DNA from: Cyclobacterium sp.
GTDB lineage: Bacteria > Bacteroidota > Bacteroidia > Cytophagales > Cyclobacteriaceae
Direction of reading: 5' to 3'
Length of the DNA stretch: 64,000 bases
NCBI RefSeq assembly: GCF_014762705.1
Contig: NZ_JABURL010000060.1
Span: forward strand, 1-64,000
This document shows positions 9,474 through 22,017 of the stretch, piece by piece (the stretch's first letter is position 1; every line of letters starts with the position of its first letter). Below the pieces are notes generated by a model. It ran no database searches. It was not told the origin of the DNA and saw only the letters and a program-made list of their open reading frames with translations. The position numbers were made by a program, and so were the translations under genes.

Positions 9474-10283
9474 TTAATCAAGCGCTTTACGCACCTGTAT
9501 ATAGTGGTCCCTAAAGGAAAGCTTTTCCGGCTCTTCTGAAAATAAGCCGAAAACGGATGAACCTGAGCCCGACATAGAAGCGTACCAGGCACCTGCCTGA
9601 TACAGTGAAGATTTGATAGCTGAAAGTATGGGGTATTTTTTAAAGAGGCTGCTTTCAAAATCATTGGTAAGATCTTTTTTCCAGTCTTCAGGTTTCTTCA
9701 ATATTTCCTTCAGGTCTTTCTGCCCGGATCTGGGTTGTACACCGGCATAAGCTTCCTGGGTACTGATATGAATTCCCGGATGAATAAGGTACAGCCAGTT
9801 TCCGGACAGCTTCACCGCGGCAGGTTGGAGCAACTCCCCTCTTCCTGTGGCGATCTGGGCCTGATTTTCAATGAAAAAAGGACAGTCGCTGCCCAACCGG
9901 GCCGCGTACTGTTTAAGTTTTTGTTTGTCAATTTTTAACTCAAAGATATCATTCAACATGGACAGTGCGAAAGCTGCATCGGCAGATCCCCCGCCAAGGC
10001 CTGCCCCAATAGGTATGTTTTTATGCAGGTGGATTTGAACAGGTGATAATTGAGGGAAATCAGCCCCCAATAAATGATACGCCTTTAAGATCAGGTTATT
10101 TTCAGATTCACCAGGAATGGCTATTCCACTACTACTGAACCCGGAAGTATCGGATGGGATTATTTCCAATGCATCACTAACAGGAATAGGGTACATGCAG
10201 GTGCTGATTTCGTGGAAGTTGTCTTTTCTTTTGCCAAGGATTTGAAGCCCCAGATTTATTTTTGCGTTAGGAAAAGTGATCAT
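9474..10283 (-). CDS. ispE: 4-diphosphocytidyl-2-C-methyl-D-erythritol kinase
   Basis: GHMP-family kinase of the non-mevalonate (MEP) isoprenoid pathway; phosphorylates the 2-hydroxyl of CDP-methylerythritol with ATP. The 269-residue protein has the catalytic Lys8 in FPNAKINLGL, the glycine-rich ATP loop PIGAGLGGGSADAA at 91-104 and the catalytic Asp133 in LGSDCPFF. MSGSGSSVFG near the C-terminus is the third GHMP motif. It stands alone on the minus strand, back to back with the ilv leader region. Confidence 0.95.
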   Translation of the reverse strand: MITFPNAKINLGLQILGKRKDNFHEISTCMYPIPVSDALEIIPSDTSGFSSSGIAIPGESENNLILKAYHLLGADFPQLSPVQIHLHKNIPIGAGLGGGSADAAFALSMLNDIFELKIDKQKLKQYAARLGSDCPFFIENQAQIATGRGELLQPAAVKLSGNWLYLIHPGIHISTQEAYAGVQPRSGQKDLKEILKKPEDWKKDLTNDFESSLFKKYPILSAIKSSLYQAGAWYASMSGSGSSVFGLFSEEPEKLSFRDHYIQVRKALD

Positions 10284-10586: not shown

Positions 10587-10617
10587 TTGTAAGTATGGAT
10601 TATGGGTTTTAATATTG
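10587..10617 (+). promoter_or_regulatory. promoter of the ilv/leu operon
   Basis: TTG at 10587-10589 is separated by 20 nt from TAATATTG at 10610-10617, one mismatch from TAnnTTTG. This spacing fits Bacteroidota promoters. The expected start near 10623 would give a leader RNA of about 45 nt before the leader peptide start. Confidence 0.5.
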
Positions 10618-10668
10618 CATTATCATTAGAACCAAAAAGGTAAAGATTACCATTTAAAAAAACGAAAT

Positions 10669-10716
10669 ATGTTCATTCTGGTCAGCCTTGTCGTACTTAT
10701 CGTCATTATCATCTAG
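10669..10716 (+). CDS. ilv operon leader peptide, MFILVSLVVLIVIII
   Basis: A 15-codon open frame, ATG to TAG, preceded by an A-rich stretch (ttaaaaaaacgaaat) typical of translation starts in this phylum. Twelve of its 15 residues are branched-chain: five Ile, three Leu and four Val. It is followed by a terminator and a competing antiterminator and then by ilvD. A peptide so rich in the operon's end products is the signature of ribosome-stalling attenuation, as in E. coli ilvL. The stop codon lies four bases before segment 2 of the attenuator, so a ribosome at the stop would cover it. The gene is too short for routine gene callers. Confidence 0.88.
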   Translation: MFILVSLVVLIVIII

Positions 10717-10720
10717 AGAG

Positions 10721-10773
10721 GGATGAAGCGCTGATCTATTGCCGATAGAAAAATACCATAAAGTGCTTCATTC
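10721..10773 (+). promoter_or_regulatory. antiterminator of the ilv attenuator
   Basis: Segment 2, GGATGAAGCGCT (10721-10732), is complementary to segment 3, AGTGCTTCATTC (10762-10773), over 12 bp with two G:U pairs. Segment 3 is also the 5' arm of the terminator stem at 10761-10786, so the two structures exclude each other. Confidence 0.8.
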
Positions 10774-10792
10774 GAGTGAAGCACTTTTTTTT
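10761..10792 (+). terminator. attenuator terminator before ilvD
   Basis: Perfect ten-base-pair stem, aagtgcttca (10761-10770) with tgaagcactt (10777-10786), loop ttcgag, followed by a run of T to 10792. It lies 36 bp before ilvD and would stop transcription when the leader peptide is translated without stalling. Confidence 0.92.
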
Positions 10793-10827: not shown

Positions 10828-12510
10828 ATGAGTGATTCAAAGAAACACAGTTGGGAGGTAAGTGATAATCAGGAAAATCCTGCTTCAATGGCCATGTTGT
10901 ATGCCACCGGGCTTTCAGATGAAAAGATGAAACAACCCTTTGTGGGAGTGGCGAGCTGTGGATATGAGAGTAATCCCTGTAACATGCACCTCAATGATTT
11001 CGCAAGAGCCATCAAGGCTGCTACAGTGAAATCCAAGCTGACTGGAATGGTTTTCAATACAATAGGTATCAGTGACGGAATTTCCATGGGAACAGCAGGG
11101 ATGCGGTACAGTTTGCCTTCCAGGGAAATCATTGCGGACTCCATTGAATCATTTATTTTAGGTCATTCTTTCGATGGGATTGTAGCAGTGGCTGGTTGTG
11201 ATAAAAACATGCCAGGGGCCATTATGGGCATGCTGCGGGTCAACCGGCCCAGCATCATGGTCTATGGGGGTACCATCCGTTCCGGGAAATACAAAGGCGA
11301 GAAACTCAATATCGTTTCAGCATTTGAAGCCTACGGCAAGCGCATCAAAGACGAGATTTCAGATGAGGACTATATGGGCGTCATTAAGAATGCCTGTCCG
11401 GGAGCAGGTGCATGCGGCGGGATGTATACCGCAAACACCATGTCTTCGGCCATAGAAGCCATGGGGCTTTCCCTGCCTTACAGTGCCTCTAACCCGGCCA
11501 ATTCCAAAGAAAAAGCTGCAGAATGTGAGGCTGCAGGAGAGTTTATTGCTAACCTCCTGGCCATGGACCTTAAGCCAAAAGACATCCTTACCAGAAAGAG
11601 TCTGGAAAACGCCGTCCGGGTAGTGGTAGCATTGGCAGGAAGTACCAATGCAGTTCTTCATTTGCTGGCCATTGCGCGTACGGCTGGCATAGATTTTGGC
11701 CTGGAAGATTTTAAACGAATCAATGCAAGTACGCCTGTTTTGGGTGATTTCAAGCCAAGTGGCAAATACCTTATGGAAGACCTGCACGAGCAGGGTGGGC
11801 TTCCGGCATTTATGAAGTATTTGCTGGATAATGGTTTGTTGCATGGAGATTGCATGACAGTAACCGGTAAGACGATTGCGGAAAACCTGGCCAACATTGC
11901 TCCGGTCAAGGCAGAAAAGGGAAGTGTAATCTGCCCGCTGGAGGATCCGATTAAGGCCACAGGTCATTTGTGTATCTTAAATGGAAACCTGGCACCTGAA
12001 GGTGCAGTGGCCAAAATTTCCGGAAAAGAGGGTGTTTCTTTTACCGGACCGGCCAAGGTTTACAATTCAGAGCAGGAGGCCAATGACGCCATGAAAAACC
12101 AGGAGGTTCAGAAAGGTGATGTGGTTGTGATCAGGTATGTAGGTCCCAAGGGGGGACCGGGAATGCCGGAGATGTTGAAACCCACTTCCATAATCATTGG
12201 CTCCGGCCTGGGTTCGGATGTGGCTTTGATTACAGATGGGCGATTTTCCGGAGGAACCCATGGTTTTGTGGTAGGACATGTAACGCCCGAAGCCTATGTA
12301 GGAGGACCGATCGGACTCTTGCAGAATGGTGATATCGTAACCATCAATGCGGAAAGTTTGGAAATCAGCTGCAATGTTACTCCTGAAGCCTTTGAAGAAA
12401 GGAAAAAAACCTGGGTTAACAAAGATTTAAGCCATTTAAATGGAACGCTAAAAAAATATTCTCAGTTAGTTTCTACGGCATCCGAGGGGTGCGTGACAGA
12501 TAAAAGTTAA
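10828..12510 (+). CDS. ilvD: dihydroxy-acid dehydratase
   Basis: Dehydrates 2,3-dihydroxyisovalerate and 2,3-dihydroxy-3-methylvalerate to the keto acids of valine and isoleucine, using an iron-sulfur cluster. The 560-residue protein has the three cluster-type cysteines: Cys51 in CNMHL, Cys124 in GCDKNMPG and Cys196 in [11 protein letters not shown]. The C-terminal swivel domain contains [15 protein letters not shown]. First gene of the operon, placed 36 bp after the attenuator terminator. Confidence 0.97.
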
Positions 12511-12515
12511 CGATT

Positions 12516-14210
12516 ATGAATGATTCCCGAATAAGAGGTGCTGAAATAGTCATCAAGTCATTGGTGGCAGAAAACGCCAGATACATCTTTGGCTACCCTG
12601 GAGGAGCCATAATGCCGGTATATGATGCCCTGTACGATTATATGGATCATATCCAGCACATTCTGACCAGACACGAGCAGGGGGCCATACATGCGGCCCA
12701 GGGCTATGCCCGGGTTTCCGGCCAGGTGGGTGTCTGTATGGCTACTTCCGGCCCTGGAGCGACCAATTTGATTACAGGTATTGCTGACGCGCTTATTGAC
12801 AGCACGCCATTGGTATGCATTACCGGGCAGGTTGCTTCTCATTTGTTAGGTACGGATGCTTTTCAGGAAACAGATGTGGTAGGCATATCCATGCCGGGTA
12901 CAAAATGGAATATTCAGGTTCGAAAGGTGGAAGATATAGCTCCTGCCATCGCCAAGGGATTTCATATAGCCCGTTCGGGAAGGCCTGGTCCGGTTTTGAT
13001 CGACATTACCAAAGATGCACAAACAGCCCTTGGGGAATTCAATTATGTTCCTTGCCTGAATATAAGGTCGTACAGACCCTACCCCAAGTTGGAGGATAGT
13101 ATCATAGTTCAGGCAGCAAATCTTATCAATCAGGCAAAGAAACCCTATGTTCTGTTTGGACAGGGAGTGATATTGGGAAAGGCCGAAAAGGCTTTGCAGG
13201 AATTCCTCGATAAATCGGGAATACCTGCAGCTTGTACGTTACTGGGTACGGGTGCCTTATCAGAGGATCATCCCAATTATGTAGGAAAATTGGGGATGCA
13301 CGGGAACTATGGGCCCAATATTTTGACCAACCAATGTGATGTACTGATTGCAATTGGAATGCGTTTTGATGACCGGGTTACCGGGGATGTGAAACGCTAT
13401 GCCAAACAGGCAAAAGTTATTCACCTGGAATTGGACCCTGCAGAGATTAATAAAAATGTAAAATGTGAGGTGGCTGTTTTGGGTGATTGCCGCATTAGCC
13501 TGGAGAAGCTTACTGAAAAAGTAGAAAAACGATCCCATCCCGAATGGATTAAAGCATTCAGGGAATTGGAAGCCGAAGAAAAGAGGGTGGTTGTAGGAAA
13601 TGACCTTTCACCTACTAAAGTTGGCTTAACCATGGGAGAGGTTATTCGCCATATCAATGAATTTAAATCAGATGATGCCATTCTGGTAACGGATGTGGGG
13701 CAACACCAAATGGTAGCCTGGAGGTATTTTGAATACAAAACCACACGTACCCAGGTAACCTCAGGGGGATTGGGAACCATGGGTTTTGCCCTTCCCGCAG
13801 CCTTGGGAGCTCAGTTGCATGATTTCAACAGACAGGTAATCTGTGTGGTAGGTGATGGTGGCATACAAATGACCATTCAGGAGTTGGGTACCATTATGCA
13901 GACCCAGGCCCCGGTAAAGGTGGTTTTATTGAACAATAATTTCCTGGGCATGGTAAGGCAGTGGCAACAATTGTTTTTCGACAAGCGCTATTCCTTTACT
14001 GAGTTGGATAACCCTGATTTTATTAAAATAGCGGAAGCGTATCATTTCAAAGTTCAGAAAGTTGGCATACGTGGGGACCTGCGTCAGGCAGTTGCAGAAA
14101 TGTTTGTCCATGAAGGACCTTATTTTCTTGAAGTAGTGGTAGAAAAAGAAGACAATGTATTCCCAATGATTGCTTCAGGGAGTTCAGTTGAAGAGGTTAG
14201 ACTTAGTTGA
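12516..14210 (+). CDS. ilvB: acetolactate synthase, large (catalytic) subunit
   Basis: Thiamine-diphosphate enzyme that condenses two pyruvates, or pyruvate with 2-ketobutyrate, in the first common step of valine and isoleucine synthesis. The 564-residue chain shows the catalytic glutamate Glu54 in TRHEQGAIHAAQGYAR, the FAD-associated middle domain (about 190-330) and the ThDP-Mg motif VVGDGGIQMTIQEL through LLNNNFLGMVRQWQ near 445-480. It begins 5 bp after ilvD and is followed by its regulatory subunit after 3 bp. Confidence 0.97.
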   Translation: MNDSRIRGAEIVIKSLVAENARYIFGYPGGAIMPVYDALYDYMDHIQHILTRHEQGAIHAAQGYARVSGQVGVCMATSGPGATNLITGIADALIDSTPLVCITGQVASHLLGTDAFQETDVVGISMPGTKWNIQVRKVEDIAPAIAKGFHIARSGRPGPVLIDITKDAQTALGEFNYVPCLNIRSYRPYPKLEDSIIVQAANLINQAKKPYVLFGQGVILGKAEKALQEFLDKSGIPAACTLLGTGALSEDHPNYVGKLGMHGNYGPNILTNQCDVLIAIGMRFDDRVTGDVKRYAKQAKVIHLELDPAEINKNVKCEVAVLGDCRISLEKLTEKVEKRSHPEWIKAFRELEAEEKRVVVGNDLSPTKVGLTMGEVIRHINEFKSDDAILVTDVGQHQMVAWRYFEYKTTRTQVTSGGLGTMGFALPAALGAQLHDFNRQVICVVGDGGIQMTIQELGTIMQTQAPVKVVLLNNNFLGMVRQWQQLFFDKRYSFTELDNPDFIKIAEAYHFKVQKVGIRGDLRQAVAEMFVHEGPYFLEVVVEKEDNVFPMIASGSSVEEVRLS

Positions 14211-14213
14211 TTC

Positions 14214-14717
14214 ATGATGAATAAAAGATACACCATTTCTGTATTTACAGAAAATTTCATAGGTATACTCAGTAGAATAACGCTGATTTTTACTCGTAGA
14301 GGCATTAATATTGATGGGTTTACCGCATCAGAAAGCAGGGAAGAAGGCATCTACAGAATAACCATTGTGGTTCATACCACCGAAGAGCAAATCATTCAGC
14401 TATCCAAGCAGATAGAAAAGATCATAGACGTGATCAAGGCTTTTTATTACCTGGATGATGAAATGGTTTTTCAGGAAATTGCCTTGTACAAAATCCCCAT
14501 CGATAATATTGACTCTGGATTGGAAAAAGTAATCCGGCAACACAATGCCAGGATCATTTCAGCAGAGAAAGACTTTGTGGTAGTTGAAATGACGGGTCAC
14601 AAAGAAGAGACCCAGGAATTACTGGAGGTTCTGAAGGATTTCAATGTTTTGGAATTTGTGCGATCGGGGAGAGTGGCCGTGGCCAAGCCTATGGAAACCA
14701 TAGATAAATATTTGTAA
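14214..14717 (+). CDS. ilvN: acetolactate synthase, small (regulatory) subunit
   Basis: Regulatory partner of IlvB that confers valine feedback inhibition in characterised homologues. The 167-residue protein begins with an ACT domain (about residues 4-75; FTENFIGILSRITLIFTRRGINIDGFTASES) followed by the ACT-like C-terminal domain. Two adjacent ATG codons offer starts at 14214 and 14217; the choice changes one residue. Length and order are typical of the ilvBN pair. Confidence 0.95.
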   Translation: MMNKRYTISVFTENFIGILSRITLIFTRRGINIDGFTASESREEGIYRITIVVHTTEEQIIQLSKQIEKIIDVIKAFYYLDDEMVFQEIALYKIPIDNIDSGLEKVIRQHNARIISAEKDFVVVEMTGHKEETQELLEVLKDFNVLEFVRSGRVAVAKPMETIDKYL

Positions 14718-14747: not shown

Positions 14748-15791
14748 ATGAAACTGAAGTTCGGTACTGTTGAAGAAAATGTTGTAACAAGAGAGGAGTT
14801 CCCTCTTGAAAAAGCCAAAGAAGTACTAAAAGATGAGGTGATTGCCGTTTTGGGCTACGGAGTACAGGGGCCCGGACAGGCCCTTAACCTAAAAGACAAT
14901 GGATTCAATGTCATTGTTGGTCAGCGTAAGGATTCTAAAACCTGGGATAAGGCCATAGCAGATGGCTGGGTACCTGGGGAAACCCTTTTTGAATTGGAGG
15001 AAGCCTGCGAAAAGGGGACCATTCTTCAGTTTTTGTTGTCTGATGCCGGACAAATTGCCCTTTGGCCTACGGTTAAGAAGCATTTGAAAGCTGGAAAGGC
15101 ATTGTATTTTTCTCATGGTTTTGGTGTAACCTACAAGGACCAGACCGGCATTATTCCGCCCAAAGATGTGGATGTGATTTTGGTAGCACCAAAAGGCTCA
15201 GGAACTTCATTGAGGAGAATGTTTGTTGAGGGTAGGGGTTTGAACTCTTCATTTGCCATTTACCAGGACGCAACCGGTAAAGCCCGGGACAGAGCGGTGG
15301 CGCTGGGTATAGGTGTAGGTTCCGGATATTTGTTCGAAACGGACTTCTATAAAGAAGTAACTTCGGATCTTACCGGAGAAAGAGGAACATTGATGGGAGC
15401 TATTCAGGGCATTTTCGCAGCTCAGTATGAAGTGTTGAGGGCCAATGGGCATTCTCCTTCAGAGGCGTTTAACGAAACTGTAGAAGAACTTACCCAAAGT
15501 TTGATGCCATTGGTGGCCGAAAACGGAATGGATTGGATGTATGCCAATTGTTCTACCACTGCTCAAAGGGGCGCTTTGGATTGGTGGAAGCCTTTCAGGG
15601 ATGCCACCAAACCTGTTTTTGAAGAATTATACAACAGTGTAAAAGCAGGTAAGGAAGCCGCCAAGTCAATAGAATCCAACAGCAAATCAGATTACAGGGT
15701 GAAGTTGGAAGAAGAGTTAAAGGAATTGAGAGAATCAGAAATGTGGCAGGCAGGTGCAACTGTCCGTAAATTAAGACCGGAGAACAATTAA
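14748..15791 (+). CDS. ilvC: ketol-acid reductoisomerase, fungal-like
   Basis: NADPH- and Mg-dependent enzyme that isomerises and reduces acetolactate or acetohydroxybutyrate. The 347-residue protein has the dinucleotide motif LGYGVQGPGQALNLKDNG near 36-53 and the metal-site segment SDLTGERG. The C-terminal half (GHSPSEAFNETVEE, CSTTAQRGALDWW, ending in VRKLRPEN) recalls the yeast mitochondrial enzyme Ilv5 much more than E. coli or Bacillus IlvC, where the metal motif reads DLxGEQ. That comparison is from memory. It is preceded by a 30-bp AT-rich gap and followed by leuA after 3 bp. Confidence 0.95.
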   Translation: MKLKFGTVEENVVTREEFPLEKAKEVLKDEVIAVLGYGVQGPGQALNLKDNGFNVIVGQRKDSKTWDKAIADGWVPGETLFELEEACEKGTILQFLLSDAGQIALWPTVKKHLKAGKALYFSHGFGVTYKDQTGIIPPKDVDVILVAPKGSGTSLRRMFVEGRGLNSSFAIYQDATGKARDRAVALGIGVGSGYLFETDFYKEVTSDLTGERGTLMGAIQGIFAAQYEVLRANGHSPSEAFNETVEELTQSLMPLVAENGMDWMYANCSTTAQRGALDWWKPFRDATKPVFEELYNSVKAGKEAAKSIESNSKSDYRVKLEEELKELRESEMWQAGATVRKLRPENN

Positions 15792-15794
15792 ATC

Positions 15795-17294
15795 ATGTCA
15801 GAAAAGCTTTGGATATTCGATACCACCCTAAGGGATGGTGAACAGGTACCGGGTTGTCAACTCGATACCAGGGAAAAGATTGTGGTAGCCAAGGCTTTGG
15901 AAGAACTGGGTGTTGATATCCTTGAGGCTGGATTTCCCATATCCAGCCCCGGGGATTTTAATTCCGTAGTAGAAATATCAAAGTCAGTGGACCGGCCAAT
16001 TATCTGTGCCTTATCCAGGGCAGTGGAAAAAGATATTGAAGTGGCTGCGGAAGCATTGCGTTTTGCCAAAAGGAGCAGGATTCATACTGGTATAGGCGTT
16101 TCAGGCTACCACATACAACACAAACTCAGAAGTACGCCGGAAGCCGTAATGGAGAAAGCCATAAAAGCTGTGAAGCTGGCCCGGAATCTTGTGGAAGAAG
16201 TGGAGTTTTATGCCGAAGATGCAGGCCGGGCAGATCCGGAATTTCTCACCCGAATTCTGGAAGCCGTCATTAAAGCCGGAGCCAGGGTCGTCAATATTCC
16301 GGATACCACCGGTTATTGTCTTCCGGAACAATATGGTAACATCATCCGGCATTTAAAAGAAAATGTTTCCAATATCGATCAGGCCATTATTGCCACGCAT
16401 TGTCACAATGATTTGGGATTGGCCACAGCCAATAGCATTTCCGGAGAGCTGAATGGGGCAAGGCAGGTGGAAGTGAACATGAACGGAATAGGATACAAGT
16501 CAAGAAATACTTCACTTGAGGAAGAAGTCATGGCTATCAAAAGGCAAACGAAAATACACGTATATACAGAAATCAACACCAAAAAAATATACGAAACCAG
16601 CAGGATCATTTCCAAGCTGATGAATATGCCGATTCAGCCCAATAAGGCGATTGTTGGCAGAAACGCCTTTGCACATTCTTCGGGAATCCATCAGGATGGA
16701 GTGCTTAAAAACAGGGAAAATTATGAGATAATGGACCCCAAAGATGTTGGGGTGGAAGAATCTTCCATTGTCCTGACGGCAAGAAGCGGCCGGGCAGCCC
16801 TAAAGCACCATTTGAAATTGCTCGGGTTTGAATTTGAAAAGGAGAAGCTGGATGAGATCTATGAAGATTTTCTGGTTTTAGCTGATGCCAAGCGGGACAT
16901 TGGAAGGAAAGACTTGCTATCCCTTTTGGGAGAACATATAGAAAATTCACCTTTTATCTCTCTTGAGCAGATTACCTATCAGGGCAAAGAAGGCGAAGAA
17001 GCCAGGGCAGAGATCAGTTTGGCTATCGGAGACGATATCAAACAGGGGGCTTCCACAGGCAATGGGCCTGTAGATGCAGTGATCAAGGCCATCAAACAAC
17101 TTATTTCTCAAGAGGTAATCCTGGATGAGTTTTTGATTCAGGCCATGACAAAAGGAAGTGATGATACATGCAAAGTGCATATGCGCTTGATGCATGAAGG
17201 GAAGCCTTATCATGGATTTGGGTCCGAAACAGATATTGTGTTGGCTTCTGCCAAAGCTTTCGTAGATGCTTTAAATAAGTTACATGTCAAGTAA
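15795..17294 (+). CDS. leuA: 2-isopropylmalate synthase
   Basis: Condenses acetyl-CoA with 2-ketoisovalerate, the committed step to leucine. The 499-residue chain has the N-terminal TIM barrel with [12 protein letters not shown] near residue 9, the metal-binding HCHNDLG near 202, and [14 protein letters not shown]. The C-terminal third carries the LeuA allosteric domain that binds leucine in homologues. A second member of the same superfamily lies downstream (cimA), but this one has the canonical LeuA motifs (HSSGIHQDG). Confidence 0.95.
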
Positions 17295-17315: not shown

Positions 17316-18737
17316 ATGGAGAAGAAAACATTATTTGATAAAATTTGGGATGCCCATGTGATCAAATCGATACCGGACGGACCAGATGTGTTTTTCATTG
17401 ATAAGCATTTTATCCATGAAGTGACCAGTCCGGTAGCATTCCTGAACCTGGAGAAAAGGGGCAACAAAGTGATGTTTCCCGAAAGGACCGTGGCCACTCC
17501 GGATCACAATGTACCTACCGTCGATCAGGATAAGACCATCAAAGACCAGCTCTCCCGGATGCAGGTAGAAAAACTCAGGGAGAATTGTAAAAGGCATGGC
17601 ATTGATTTGCATGACCTGGGGACAGACCACCACGGAATTGTTCATGTGATTGGCCCCGAACTGGGGATCACCCAACCGGGAATGACCATCGTATGCGGTG
17701 ACAGCCATACTTCCACCCATGGTGCTTTTGGAACCATTGCCTTTGGTATTGGTACTTCTGAAGTTGAAATGGTTTTTGCTACCCAGTGTATCATGCAGGC
17801 CAAGCCTAAAAAGATGCGCATTACAGTAGACGGGACCCTTGGAAGAGGGGTGAGTTCTAAGGACATTATTTTATATATCATTTCCCAGATATCTGCCAGT
17901 GGTGGAACAGGTTATTTTATAGAATATGCAGGTAGTGCCATCCGGTCTTTGAGCATGGAAGCCAGAATGACCATCTGTAACATGAGTATAGAGATGGGTG
18001 CCAGAGGCGGGCTAATCGCTCCTGACGAAACCACTTTTAATTATCTTGAGGGCAAAGATTTGGCGCCTAAGGGGGAAGCATGGGATCAGGCAGTAGCTTA
18101 CTGGAAGACCTTAAAAACTGATGAAGGAGCTCAATTTGACTTGGAATACCATTACAATGCGGAGGATATAGAGCCCATGATCACTTATGGCACCAATCCG
18201 GGTATGGGAGTGAAAGTTAAAGATAGCATACCCACTACCGATGGCATGAAGGAGAACGTCAAGAAATCTTATATCAAGTCCTTGGATTATATGGGTTTCA
18301 AGCCCGGAGAACCCATGAAAGGCAAGAAAATCGACTATGTCTTTGTGGGCAGTTGTACCAATGGAAGAATTGAGGACCTGAGGACAGTGGCTGAATTTGT
18401 CAAGGGCAAAAAGAAGGCGGATAACATAACTGCCTGGATCGTACCCGGTTCCAGAGAAGTGGAGAAAAAAGCCATGGAAGAGGGTTTGGTCCAGATTTTG
18501 GAGGAAGCTGGATTCAAACTCAGACAGCCAGGTTGTTCGGCATGTTTGGCAATGAATGATGATAAAATCCCATCCGGGAAATATGCGGTTTCAACGTCTA
18601 ACCGTAATTTTGAAGGAAGGCAGGGTCCTGGTAGCCGTACATTGCTGGCTTCACCACTCACTGTCGCCGCAGTGGCCATCACAGGTGAAATAACCGACCC
18701 AAGGGATTTGATTGAGGAATTAGCATTAGAAAAATAG
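17316..18737 (+). CDS. leuC: 3-isopropylmalate dehydratase, large subunit
   Basis: Aconitase-family isomerase that interconverts 2- and 3-isopropylmalate with LeuD. The 473-residue protein binds a 4Fe-4S cluster through Cys near 347 ([13 protein letters not shown]) and a Cys pair near 407/410 (GCSACLAMN). [18 protein letters not shown] is diagnostic. In organisms using the citramalate route the same LeuCD pair usually also converts citramalate, which would fit the cimA gene downstream. leuD follows after 4 bp. Confidence 0.96.
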
Positions 18738-18741
18738 AATC

Positions 18742-19332
18742 ATGGCATACGATAAGTTTGATGTTTTGACCAGCAGAATGGTCCCGCTTTCTACCGAGAA
18801 TGTAGATACCGACCAAATCATTCCTGCCAGGTTTTTAAAAGCCACCGAAAGGAAGGGATTTGGAGATAATCTTTTTCGGGATTGGCGTTACAATAGCGAA
18901 GGGAATCCAAAACCTGATTTCGTGCTGAATGATCCTACCTATGAAGGAAAAATCCTTTTGGCGGGGAGGAATTTTGGTTCAGGATCCAGTAGGGAACACG
19001 CCGTTTGGGCAATTTATGATTATGGCTTCCGCTGTGTGGTGTCCAGTTTCTTTGCGGACATATTTAAGAACAACTGCTTGAATATCGGTGTGCTACCCGT
19101 AACGGTAACACCTGAATTTGCAGACGAGCTTTTTGCCGCTGTAGAAGCAGACCCTTCCGCAGAAGTAGAAGTGGATATCAACAAGCAAACCATTACCCTG
19201 CTTTCTACGGGTAGATCTGAAAGCTTCGATATCAATTCCTACAAGAAGCAAAACATGAAAAATGGTTTCGATGATATCGATTACTTGTTGAACCTGAAGA
19301 CTGAAATTCAGGCTTTTGAGGCAGGTAGATAA
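18742..19332 (+). CDS. leuD: 3-isopropylmalate dehydratase, small subunit
   Basis: Swivel-domain partner of LeuC. The 196-residue protein has VDTDQIIPARFLK near 21-33 and NFGSGSSREHAVWA near 75-88, the segment that positions substrate. Length and order are typical of the leuCD pair. Confidence 0.96.
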   Translation: MAYDKFDVLTSRMVPLSTENVDTDQIIPARFLKATERKGFGDNLFRDWRYNSEGNPKPDFVLNDPTYEGKILLAGRNFGSGSSREHAVWAIYDYGFRCVVSSFFADIFKNNCLNIGVLPVTVTPEFADELFAAVEADPSAEVEVDINKQTITLLSTGRSESFDINSYKKQNMKNGFDDIDYLLNLKTEIQAFEAGR

Positions 19333-19388
19333 ATTGAAAAGCTGAGATAACGGGATTTATAGGGGTTAGGAATGATGAATTGATAGGG

Positions 19389-20978
19389 ATGCGCAGAGAA
19401 AAGAATATAGAAATCATGGATACCACCCTCAGGGACGGGGAGCAAACCTCAGGAGTATCCTTCCTCCCTTCAGAGAAGCTACAGATTGCAAAGCTTTTGC
19501 TGGAGGAACTTCGGGTGGACCGCATCGAAGTGGCATCTGCCAGGGTTTCGGAAGGGGAACTCGAGGGGGTAAAGAAGATTACTCACTGGGCTGCTGAAAA
19601 GGGGTATCTGGATAAAATCGAGGTTTTAGGATTTGTGGACACTCCCAAGTCAGTTGATTGGATCGTGGATGCAGGGGCAAAAGTACTTAACCTGCTTACC
19701 AAAGGCTCCTTAAATCACCTGACGCATCAATTAAAGAAATCGCCGGAAACACATTTTGAGGAAATCGCCGAATGCATCCGTTACGCAAAGGAGCACGGGA
19801 TAGAAGTGAATGTTTACCTGGAAGATTGGAGTAACGGCATGAGAAATTCGAGGGACTATGCCATATCTATGATCCGGTTTCTCTCTACCTTGCCTGTAAA
19901 GCGTATCATGTTGCCCGATACTTTGGGATTGCTTTGCCCACAGGAGGTCAATGATTTTCTTGGAGAAATTTGCCAATCGTTTCCCCAGGTCCATTTTGAT
20001 TTTCATGCCCACAATGACTATGACCTTTCAGTGGCCAATGTGCTGAATGCAATAAATGTTGGCGCCAGGGGTATACATACCACGGTCAATGGTTTGGGTG
20101 AAAGGACCGGGAATGCTCCATTAGAGTCGGTTGTAGCTGTCATCAAAGATTTTACCGATTATTCTTTAAACATCAACGAAAGTAAAATTTATAGAATCAG
20201 TAAATTGGTGGAGCAGTTTTCTGGTTTGAGAATCCCTGCCAATAAGCCTGTGGTTGGAGAGAATGTGTTCACCCAAACGGCGGGAGTACATGCTGACGGG
20301 GATAACAAGAAAAACCTTTATTTCAGTGATTTATTACCGGAAAGGTTTGGGAGAACCCGGAAATATGCCTTGGGTAAGACCTCGGGGAAGGCAAATATTC
20401 TCAAAAATCTGGTGGAATTGGGTATTTCTCTGGAACCGGACGAATTGGCCAAGGTGACGCAGAAAATCATAGAGCTTGGTGACAAAAAGGAAAGGGTTAC
20501 TACAGAAGACCTGCCGTACATCATATCAGATGTCTTACAGAACAATTCCATCCATAGGGATATTGTCATAGACGGTTACCATATGGTGCATTCCAAAGGG
20601 CTAAAGCCCTCTGTTCAGTTAAGGATAAAGATATACAGCGAGTTTTATGAACAGAATGCCTCCGGAGATGGACAGTATGATTCATTTATGAAGGCATTGA
20701 AGAAGATTTATAAATCACTCAATAAAGAGCTTCCAAAGCTAACTGATTTTCATATCAGTATCCCTCCGGGGGGCAAGACAGATGCTTTTGTGGAATGTGT
20801 CATCACCTGGGACCTGGGTGGAAGAATTTTTAAGACCAAGGGCCTGGACAGTGACCAGACCATTGCTGCCATGAAGGCAACCGAAAAAATGTTAAATATC
20901 ATTGAACAAATTAAAAATAATAACAAAACAGAAAAAAAGAACCCTTATGGAAATGAATATAGCCCTATTGCCTGGTGA
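19389..20978 (+). CDS. cimA: (R)-citramalate synthase, LeuA superfamily
   Basis: Condenses pyruvate with acetyl-CoA to citramalate, which opens a threonine-independent route to 2-ketobutyrate and isoleucine. The 529-residue protein has [13 protein letters not shown] near residue 11, VYLEDWSNGMRNS, HFDFHAHNDYDLS, QTAGVHADGDNKKNLY and IPPGGKTDAFVE. These match my memory of the characterised Leptospira interrogans enzyme closely and differ from the LeuA in the same operon. The ATG at 19389 is chosen over a TTG nine bases upstream. A LeuA-type C-terminal regulatory domain is present, so feedback control is likely. The last 32 bp overlap leuB. A homocitrate synthase-like role is the main alternative. 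Confidence 0.85.
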   Translation: MRREKNIEIMDTTLRDGEQTSGVSFLPSEKLQIAKLLLEELRVDRIEVASARVSEGELEGVKKITHWAAEKGYLDKIEVLGFVDTPKSVDWIVDAGAKVLNLLTKGSLNHLTHQLKKSPETHFEEIAECIRYAKEHGIEVNVYLEDWSNGMRNSRDYAISMIRFLSTLPVKRIMLPDTLGLLCPQEVNDFLGEICQSFPQVHFDFHAHNDYDLSVANVLNAINVGARGIHTTVNGLGERTGNAPLESVVAVIKDFTDYSLNINESKIYRISKLVEQFSGLRIPANKPVVGENVFTQTAGVHADGDNKKNLYFSDLLPERFGRTRKYALGKTSGKANILKNLVELGISLEPDELAKVTQKIIELGDKKERVTTEDLPYIISDVLQNNSIHRDIVIDGYHMVHSKGLKPSVQLRIKIYSEFYEQNASGDGQYDSFMKALKKIYKSLNKELPKLTDFHISIPPGGKTDAFVECVITWDLGGRIFKTKGLDSDQTIAAMKATEKMLNIIEQIKNNNKTEKKNPYGNEYSPIAW

Positions 20979-22017
20979 TGGAATAGGACCTGAAGTGATT
21001 GCTCAAGCGGTAAAAGTCGTTGAGGCCATTGGAAAAAAATTCAACCATCAAATTACTTTTAAGGAAGCCATTACAGGTGCTGCCGCAATAGATGCTGTAG
21101 GCCTGCCTTATCCTGAAGAGACCCACCAGGTTTGTCTTCAGTCCGATGCAGTGCTTTTTGGAGCCATTGGCGACCCCAAATTTGATAATGATCCAAGTGC
21201 AAAGGTTAGACCAGAACAGGGGCTGTTGGAAATGAGGAAAAGATTGGGCTTATTTTCCAATGTGCGTCCCACTTTTACCTTTCCTTCATTGCTTCATAAA
21301 TCTCCTCTGAAAAGAGAAAGAATAGAGGGAACGGACTTGGTTTTTTTAAGAGAACTGACCGGAGGTATTTACTTTGGTGAACCAAGGGGAAGAAACGAAC
21401 AGGGGACAAAAGCATTTGATACATGCGTTTACTCTGTAGAAGAAATCGAAAGACTGGCCCGTATGGGCTTTGAATTTGCCCAAAAAAGGAGAAAATTACT
21501 GACCTGTGTGGATAAGGCAAATGTGTTGGCTACATCCAGGCTGTGGAGGGAGACTGTTCAGCGTATTGCCCCGGAATATCCGGATGTGAAGGTTGAATAT
21601 GAATTTGTGGATGCTGTAGCCATGCGTTTGGTACAGTGGCCCAAAGCTTATGATGTATTGATCACGGAAAATTTGTTTGGAGACATCCTTACTGATGAGG
21701 CTTCAGTGATCAGTGGCTCCATGGGATTGATGCCTTCAGCTTCTATAGGGATTAAGACCAAGCTTTTTGAACCCATACATGGTTCTTATCCCCAGGCAGC
21801 AGGAAAGGATATCGCCAACCCCCTGGCTGCTGTATTGTCAGCCTCCATGATGTTTGAGTATGCTTTTGGACTTATGGACGAAGCACAAGCCATCTCTGAT
21901 GCCGTCAATCTTTCCCTGGAAAGTGGGATTGTGACCGAAGATCTGGCTGAGGGTGATAAAGCTTATAAGACCTCTGAAGTGGGTGATTGGCTGGCCTCAC
22001 AAATCGCTAAGTCATAG
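20947..22017 (+). CDS. leuB: 3-isopropylmalate dehydrogenase
   Basis: NAD-dependent oxidative decarboxylase of leucine synthesis, probably also acting on methylmalate in the citramalate route. From the ATG at 20947 the 356-residue protein starts MEMNIALLPGDGIGPEV, the family N-terminus; longer in-frame starts would add an unrelated tail encoded inside cimA. It contains LRELTGGIYFGEPRG, the catalytic Lys in CVDKANVLATSRLWR, and ENLFGDILTDEAS. It overlaps cimA by 32 bp and ends the operon before a strong terminator. Confidence 0.95.
   Translation: MEMNIALLPGDGIGPEVIAQAVKVVEAIGKKFNHQITFKEAITGAAAIDAVGLPYPEETHQVCLQSDAVLFGAIGDPKFDNDPSAKVRPEQGLLEMRKRLGLFSNVRPTFTFPSLLHKSPLKRERIEGTDLVFLRELTGGIYFGEPRGRNEQGTKAFDTCVYSVEEIERLARMGFEFAQKRRKLLTCVDKANVLATSRLWRETVQRIAPEYPDVKVEYEFVDAVAMRLVQWPKAYDVLITENLFGDILTDEASVISGSMGLMPSASIGIKTKLFEPIHGSYPQAAGKDIANPLAAVLSASMMFEYAFGLMDEAQAISDAVNLSLESGIVTEDLAEGDKAYKTSEVGDWLASQIAKS

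Follow-up and report, generated by a model that had tools for sequence, protein, structure and literature searches.

Comparative evidence for a probable ribosome-mediated attenuator with an Ile/Leu/Val-rich leader peptide upstream of the ilv-leu operon of a Cyclobacterium

The leader of the Escherichia coli ilvGMEDA operon (ilvL), with a peptide of 32 codons and competing antiterminator and terminator structures, senses all three branched-chain tRNAs and has the ilv operon downstream of it. The sequence-only reading of the DNA studied here noted such control as best known in Proteobacteria; it is, however, not confined to them, since Corynebacterium (PMC10272879) and Staphylococcus (PMC5794164) also have Ile/Leu/Val leaders, and amino-acid leaders are reported in Flavobacterium (PMC9723704). 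The leucine-rich Staphylococcus aureus attenuator resembles the present locus in placing a leader peptide and a terminator before an ilvD-headed ilv-leu operon (PMC5794164), and the Corynebacterium ilvB-II motif resembles it in having a peptide rich in branched-chain amino acid (BCAA) codons, usually of 15-17 codons, followed by a terminator and an antiterminator (PMC10272879). Within the phylum Bacteroidota, Flavobacterium psychrophilum is reported to show strong signs of attenuation by leader peptides ahead of its amino-acid operons (PMC9723704), and small ORFs in the 5' UTRs of Bacteroides thetaiotaomicron, a member of the same phylum as our locus, have been likened to attenuation leaders (PMC7366714).

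The locus compared here with these systems lies in a Cyclobacterium assembly of 6.1 Mb in 125 contigs, from which we analysed one stretch of 64,000 nucleotides (the window). Its leader ORF and competing hairpins most likely switch on and off an operon of nine genes, annotated as follows:

10828-12510, plus strand: ilvD, dihydroxy-acid dehydratase, first gene of the operon (TIGR00110, 717.9 bits, cut-off 618)
12516-14210, plus strand: ilvB, acetolactate synthase large subunit (TIGR00118, over cut-off)
14214-14717, plus strand: ilvN, acetolactate synthase small subunit (TIGR00119, over cut-off)
14748-15791, plus strand: ilvC, ketol-acid reductoisomerase (TIGR00465, over cut-off)
15795-17294, plus strand: leuA, 2-isopropylmalate synthase (TIGR00973, over cut-off)
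17316-18737, plus strand: leuC, isopropylmalate dehydratase large subunit (TIGR00170, over cut-off)
18742-19332, plus strand: leuD, isopropylmalate dehydratase small subunit (TIGR00171, over cut-off)
19380-20978, plus strand: second LeuA-family synthase, closest to the Leptospira-type (R)-citramalate synthase CimA (NF042433, 689 bits, cut-off 950)
20947-22017, plus strand: leuB, 3-isopropylmalate dehydrogenase, overlapping the end of the preceding gene (TIGR00169, over cut-off)

The nine downstream genes noticed in the sequence-only reading were all recovered, eight of them exceeding a curated cut-off and the ninth being CimA-like. Because the score of this ninth gene lies below its cut-off, a CimA function, and with it the synthesis of isoleucine from pyruvate, is likely rather than certain. 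The start of leuB is the ATG at 20947, chosen in this analysis. The spacing of the nine genes points to a single transcript, their order is the same in Aquiflexum gelatinilyticum and in an Algoriphagus MAG, the two nearest named relatives found. A single small ORF may therefore control the greater part of the ilv-leu pathway. The upstream gene, at 9474-10283 on the minus strand, which from its translation we take to be an ispE-like kinase, is divergent from ilvD, and a terminator of a neighbouring gene read towards ilvD was thereby ruled out. Upstream of ilvD, we assigned the following elements, the first two being those of a predicted promoter:

10587-10589, plus strand: TTG, -33-like element, 20 nt upstream of the -7 box (pattern match)
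10610-10617, plus strand: TAATATTG, -7-like element, matching TAHHTTTG at 7 of 8 positions (pattern match)
10669-10716, plus strand: leader peptide ORF MFILVSLVVLIVIII, 15 codons, from the ATG at 10669 to the TAG stop codon at 10714-10716
10680-10686, plus strand: segment 1, GGUCAGC, spanning leader codons 4-6, a candidate arm of the protector hairpin with its partner at 10730-10736 (MFE fold)
10721-10732, plus strand: segment 2, 5' arm of the antiterminator (pairing and folding)
10760-10773, plus strand: segment 3, shared arm of the antiterminator (10762-10773) and the terminator (10760-10771) (covariation and folding)
10776-10792, plus strand: segment 4 (10776-10787) and T run (10785-10792), intrinsic terminator (covariation and folding)

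The leader ORF is short and enriched in codons for the end products of the operon; our recount agrees with the earlier one in finding that 12 of its 15 residues are Ile (5), Val (4) or Leu (3). Among the 738 small ORFs of the window that start with ATG and encode 8-45 aa, both strands counted, it ranks first in I/L/V richness, its best 12-residue stretch holding 11 such residues against 9 and 8 for the next two ORFs. The 12 loci of the genus carry eight distinct leader ORFs, in which the variable columns number 4, 0 and 8 at codon positions 1, 2 and 3, respectively; pN/pS is 0.16, and every change either is synonymous or exchanges one of I, L, V and F for another. Judged by this pattern of substitution, the leader has been conserved as a coding sequence. 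The invariant codons include GTC AGC, which lies inside candidate segment 1. A Kozak-like A at position -3 of the leader start is not claimed, because it was present in only 11 of the 31 sequences from the genus and its close relatives.

Between the leader ORF and the first structural gene lies an intrinsic terminator (10760-10792), the stem of which, AAAGUGCUUCAU/GUGAAGCACUUU, pairs 10760-10771 with 10776-10787 over 12 bp around a loop at 10772-10775; the T run consists of eight Ts, the predicted energy of the hairpin is -14.6 kcal/mol, and ilvD starts 35 bases past the T run. This terminator had been described as a perfect stem at 10761-10786; the stem and T run stand, but the ends had been set slightly short and the pair closing the loop is U-G. 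Two other proposals, that segment 2 pairs over 12 bp with 10762-10773 and that the stop codon of the leader ends 4 nt 5' of segment 2, were reproduced, the former with two G-U pairs and an energy of -18.4 kcal/mol as a hairpin. The antiterminator so formed shares the 5' arm of the terminator, and the two structures are mutually exclusive. The fold of the leader RNA has a z-score of -2.46, with one of 200 shuffles equally stable.

The primary promoter consensus of the Bacteroidota is given as TTTG/TANNTTTG (PMC6847099). A TAHHTTTG-like box matching at 7 or more of the 8 positions occurs in all 31 genus and close sequences, three of which match at all eight. Because a 7/8 match by itself arises in 52% of mononucleotide shuffles, the argument for a promoter rests on the fixed spacing between the box and the TTG, which lies 20 nt upstream in 30 of the 31 sequences, the remaining one having a distance of 21 nt; the -33 element was found to be weak in F. 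johnsoniae (PMC6847099). Transcription is predicted to start near 10622, 47 nt before the leader ATG, a position chosen because of the G at -5 in the published promoter (PMC6847099).

The proposed mechanism is as follows. RNA polymerase would start near 10622, and a ribosome would follow it on the leader. Were charged Ile-, Leu- or Val-tRNA short, the ribosome would stall within the I/L/V codons and leave segment 2 free to pair with segment 3 once the latter had been transcribed; with segment 3 taken, segment 4 would have no partner, no terminator would form and the ilv-leu operon would be transcribed. With all three tRNAs charged, the ribosome would arrive at the stop codon and cover the first half of segment 2, so that segment 3 would pair with segment 4 and transcription would end in the T run. 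With no ribosome on the leader, a hairpin of segments 1 and 2 may hold segment 2, which is the weakest step. We infer the point at which transcription starts, the translation of the leader, the stalling of the ribosome and termination, as well as the 1:2 stem.

The competing structures were also folded with a modelled ribosome, the covered RNA being left out of the fold and the reach being assumed to extend 12 nt past the A-site codon (10 nt was also tried). Before segment 4, stalls at codons 5, 9 and 12 gave the antiterminator at -18.4 kcal/mol; a ribosome at the stop codon left -3.4 kcal/mol (12 nt covered) or -7.1 kcal/mol (10 nt), and the terminator formed in the model when segment 4 was added. 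It is by such geometry and folding only that a ribosome at the stop codon would mask segment 2; a stall at codon 15 gave -8.0, almost as at the stop codon. With segment 4 included, the antiterminator was favoured only for an A site at codon 12, codons 5 and 9 both giving the terminator; the model therefore needs co-transcriptional kinetics, in which the order of transcription matters. The ribosome-free MFE structure before segment 4 contained the antiterminator and lacked the 1:2 stem, and that with segment 4 contained the 1:2 stem and the terminator.

For the distribution of the element, the 450 bases upstream of the ilvD match were scanned at 192 loci, comprising 12 from the genus (the window included), 17 from the same family with ilvD at least 75% identical, 83 from the family or order and 80 named loci, the latter being the best 80 of at least 595. 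A leader was called where at least seven I/L/V residues fell within 12 and a terminator-like hairpin followed within 120 bases; the group termed close, of 19 loci, joins the 17 same-family loci to two of the named ones. All 192 ilvD starts lie in an open frame and every upstream region reaches at least 450 bases; 50 of the 52 other matches of the family search were taken in (G055 and G062 were left out), and second, divergent ilvD-like matches (L014-L027) fell outside the scan. Leader and terminator occurred together at 77 of the 192 loci: in all 12 of the genus, in all 19 of the close group (ilvD about 75% identical or more) and in 46 of the 161 others, divided as 12/35 (L045-L079), 6/48 (L080-L127) and 28/78 (L130-L207). 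Among the misses, L050 and L147 have identical upstream sequences, and L059 and L157 very likely lie on one contig; a miss upstream of ilvD is compatible with an attenuator before another gene. Ten dinucleotide shuffles of each of the 192 upstream regions yielded leader and terminator in 0 of 1920 cases, which, together with the first rank among the small ORFs of the window, excludes a chance origin. In a separate draw across the phylum, ilvD was found in 75 of 99 genomes, and a leader was called in 13 of 72 upstream regions (520 bases each, overlap with the earlier loci left out; loci L250-L279 had full flanks); calls with weak-looking terminators, three of them from family f35, may be false. 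From the 77 of 192 loci and the 13 of 72 regions, we conclude that the trait is widespread but patchy.

Another family of the phylum, f41, carried an I/L/V leader and terminator in eight of nine ilvD upstream regions (L290-L293, L296, L297, L300 and L309); most of these leaders end in a YRPGK-like tail, and the ninth region (L301) has a similar peptide just below the threshold. In a record titled Ignavibacteriae bacterium (L140), an I/L/V-rich leader, MKNFSLINIILLIIVIIIPGYWE, and a terminator precede ilvD-ilvB-ilvN-ilvC.

The genus and close loci provided an alignment of 30 leaders, one identical row of the 31 having been removed. The antiterminator was paired in 87.9% of cells, compared with 35-44% for slid controls, and the terminator in 93.9%. 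Double-change cells numbered 20 in the antiterminator (8.1 in shuffles) and 15 in the terminator (6.6 in shuffles), with 0 of 500 shuffles as high in either case; counted by base pair rather than by cell, double changes were not above shuffles (antiterminator 3 pairs, 214/500; terminator 2 pairs, 284/500), further pair types in the terminator were below them (7 against 8.3), and evolution may have produced the double changes in one or two steps. At alignment column 136, in the shared arm, 16 rows have C and 14 have U and both partners match in 30 of 30, a pattern for which one or two events on the tree may suffice. The 1:2 pairing was present in 65.7% of cells of the 30 relatives, with covariation not above shuffles (68/500).

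When unbroken antiterminator helices were compared with shuffled sequence (p <= 0.05), the fit of segment 2 was significant in all six distinct genus leaders, in 19 of 19 close ones and, among the distinct called leaders, in 9 of 12 from L045-L079 and 6 of 6 from L080-L127, and in only 6 of 27 from the named loci L130-L207. Across all 77 called loci, pairing between arms of the same locus averaged 19.1, against 13.1 with the arm of another locus and 11.3 after shuffling. The relatives compared have thus kept both of the mutually exclusive stems, and a change in one goes with a change in the other.

The checks suggested by the sequence-only reading, namely conservation of an Ile/Leu/Val-rich peptide and covarying stems in related genomes, were both run and came out in its favour: the peptide is kept throughout the genus and the close group with synonymous codon drift, and the antiterminator changes together with the terminator arm. 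These relatives, the synonymous drift and the stems changing together support its view of the region as a ribosome-mediated attenuator, and on this comparative evidence we consider that the element is very probably a classical ribosome-mediated transcription attenuator of the ilv-leu operon.

Three other explanations were weighed. The ORF might encode a functional hydrophobic micropeptide, a membrane peptide or toxin-like, with the hairpins forming a separate, constitutive partial terminator; the leader is hydrophobic enough for a membrane segment, and its coding conservation, taken alone, fits such a peptide and an attenuator leader equally. Against this, I, L and V make up 86% of the A, I, L, V, F, M, W, G and C residues in the leaders of the 31 loci from the genus and the close group (the leader caller favours I/L/V, but none of the 31 examined failed it), and past the start codon these leaders have a single Met and lack Ala. 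In addition, the end of the ORF and segment 2 lie within a few bases of each other (median +4 in the genus, -2 in close relatives), and the ORF is located before a BCAA operon; we regard a micropeptide as very unlikely. An RNA that senses a tRNA or a metabolite directly, such as a T-box or riboswitch, would likewise have a leader, a terminator and an antiterminator, and the ORF would then be incidental. This candidate was dropped on the result of an Rfam search, in which no family reached its gathering score at the leader; a lax threshold gave five matches with E values of 0.94-4.9, each far below its gathering score, one of them the Bacteroides sRNA GibS with 19.3 of 115 bits. The conservation, moreover, follows codon structure, and only about 47 nt of 5' leader precede the ORF by the predicted start, which makes such an RNA extremely improbable.

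Finally, an ILV-rich leader might act by another route, for instance through coupled translation or Rho, rather than by a 2:3/3:4 switch. There is a precedent in the non-classical leader of Streptomyces ilvB, which is rich in ILV and is reported not to respond when its regulatory codons are mutated (PMC1262725). In the present case, however, a terminator and a competing antiterminator are conserved and change together, and such a route seems to us scarcely credible beside the classical attenuator.

Two other small ORFs were observed in the genus. By the filter used, 11 of 12 genus genomes have a Thr-rich ORF (MVFAV...TTTTTGITG type) about 200 nt upstream of an aspartokinase match, itself a large open frame of about 817 aa (L220-L231), and a shorter version is present in the window's own genome; no clear poly-U terminator was seen in two sequences inspected, and the ORF is possibly a thr leader. 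A His-rich ORF (HHAGHH type) lies at most about 190 nt upstream of a hisG match in 7 of 12 genus genomes (L208, L210, L211, L214, L215, L217 and L219) and is degenerate in three filter-negative genomes inspected, including the window's own; it is possibly a decaying his leader. Attenuation may be patchy but phylum-wide for the amino-acid operons of Bacteroidota, bacteria with mRNAs that lack Shine-Dalgarno sequences (ilv, with thr and his as candidates in the same genus), and one three-tRNA sensor would here govern the Val, Leu and CimA-like Ile route from pyruvate, a proposal that we find evenly balanced between right and wrong.

Compared with E. coli ilvGMEDA, the window has a shorter peptide, of 15 codons, an operon that is headed by ilvD and includes leu genes and the CimA-like synthase, and a predicted promoter of the Bacteroidota type; no sequence homology is claimed. 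The S. aureus attenuator differs in its 26-codon peptide with Ile and Leu and in the addition of CodY control, and its proposed antiterminator, unlike that of the window, has the poly-U tail as its pairing partner and does not disrupt the stem of the terminator (PMC5794164). The Corynebacterium ilvB-II motif differs in lying before ilvB and in belonging to the Actinobacteria (PMC10272879). The F. psychrophilum leaders share both phylum and proposed mechanism with the window and were there recognized in mapped 5' transcripts; the section of that study on 5' cis-regulatory RNAs names no ilv leader (PMC9723704). The long-5'-UTR example described for B. thetaiotaomicron, unlike the window, is the mRNA of a hypothetical protein rather than of an ilv operon (PMC7366714). 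Among the matches listed from the open-licence literature, we found no paper on a Bacteroidota ilv leader.

The present case, for which the RNA-family library used (Rfam, gathering scores) gave no match, provides a well-supported leader-peptide attenuator anatomy in a phylum with translation start rules unlike those of the textbook organisms, and bears on whether leader translation lacking a Shine-Dalgarno sequence can keep in step with transcription as tightly as attenuation of the classical kind demands. What is new here is the comparative evidence for an ilv-leu leader and for its spread. Because leader-peptide attenuation has already been reported in the phylum (PMC9723704), the window element is to be seen as a further case of a known mechanism; set beside the systems described above, it is a well-conserved but ordinary example of classical attenuation.
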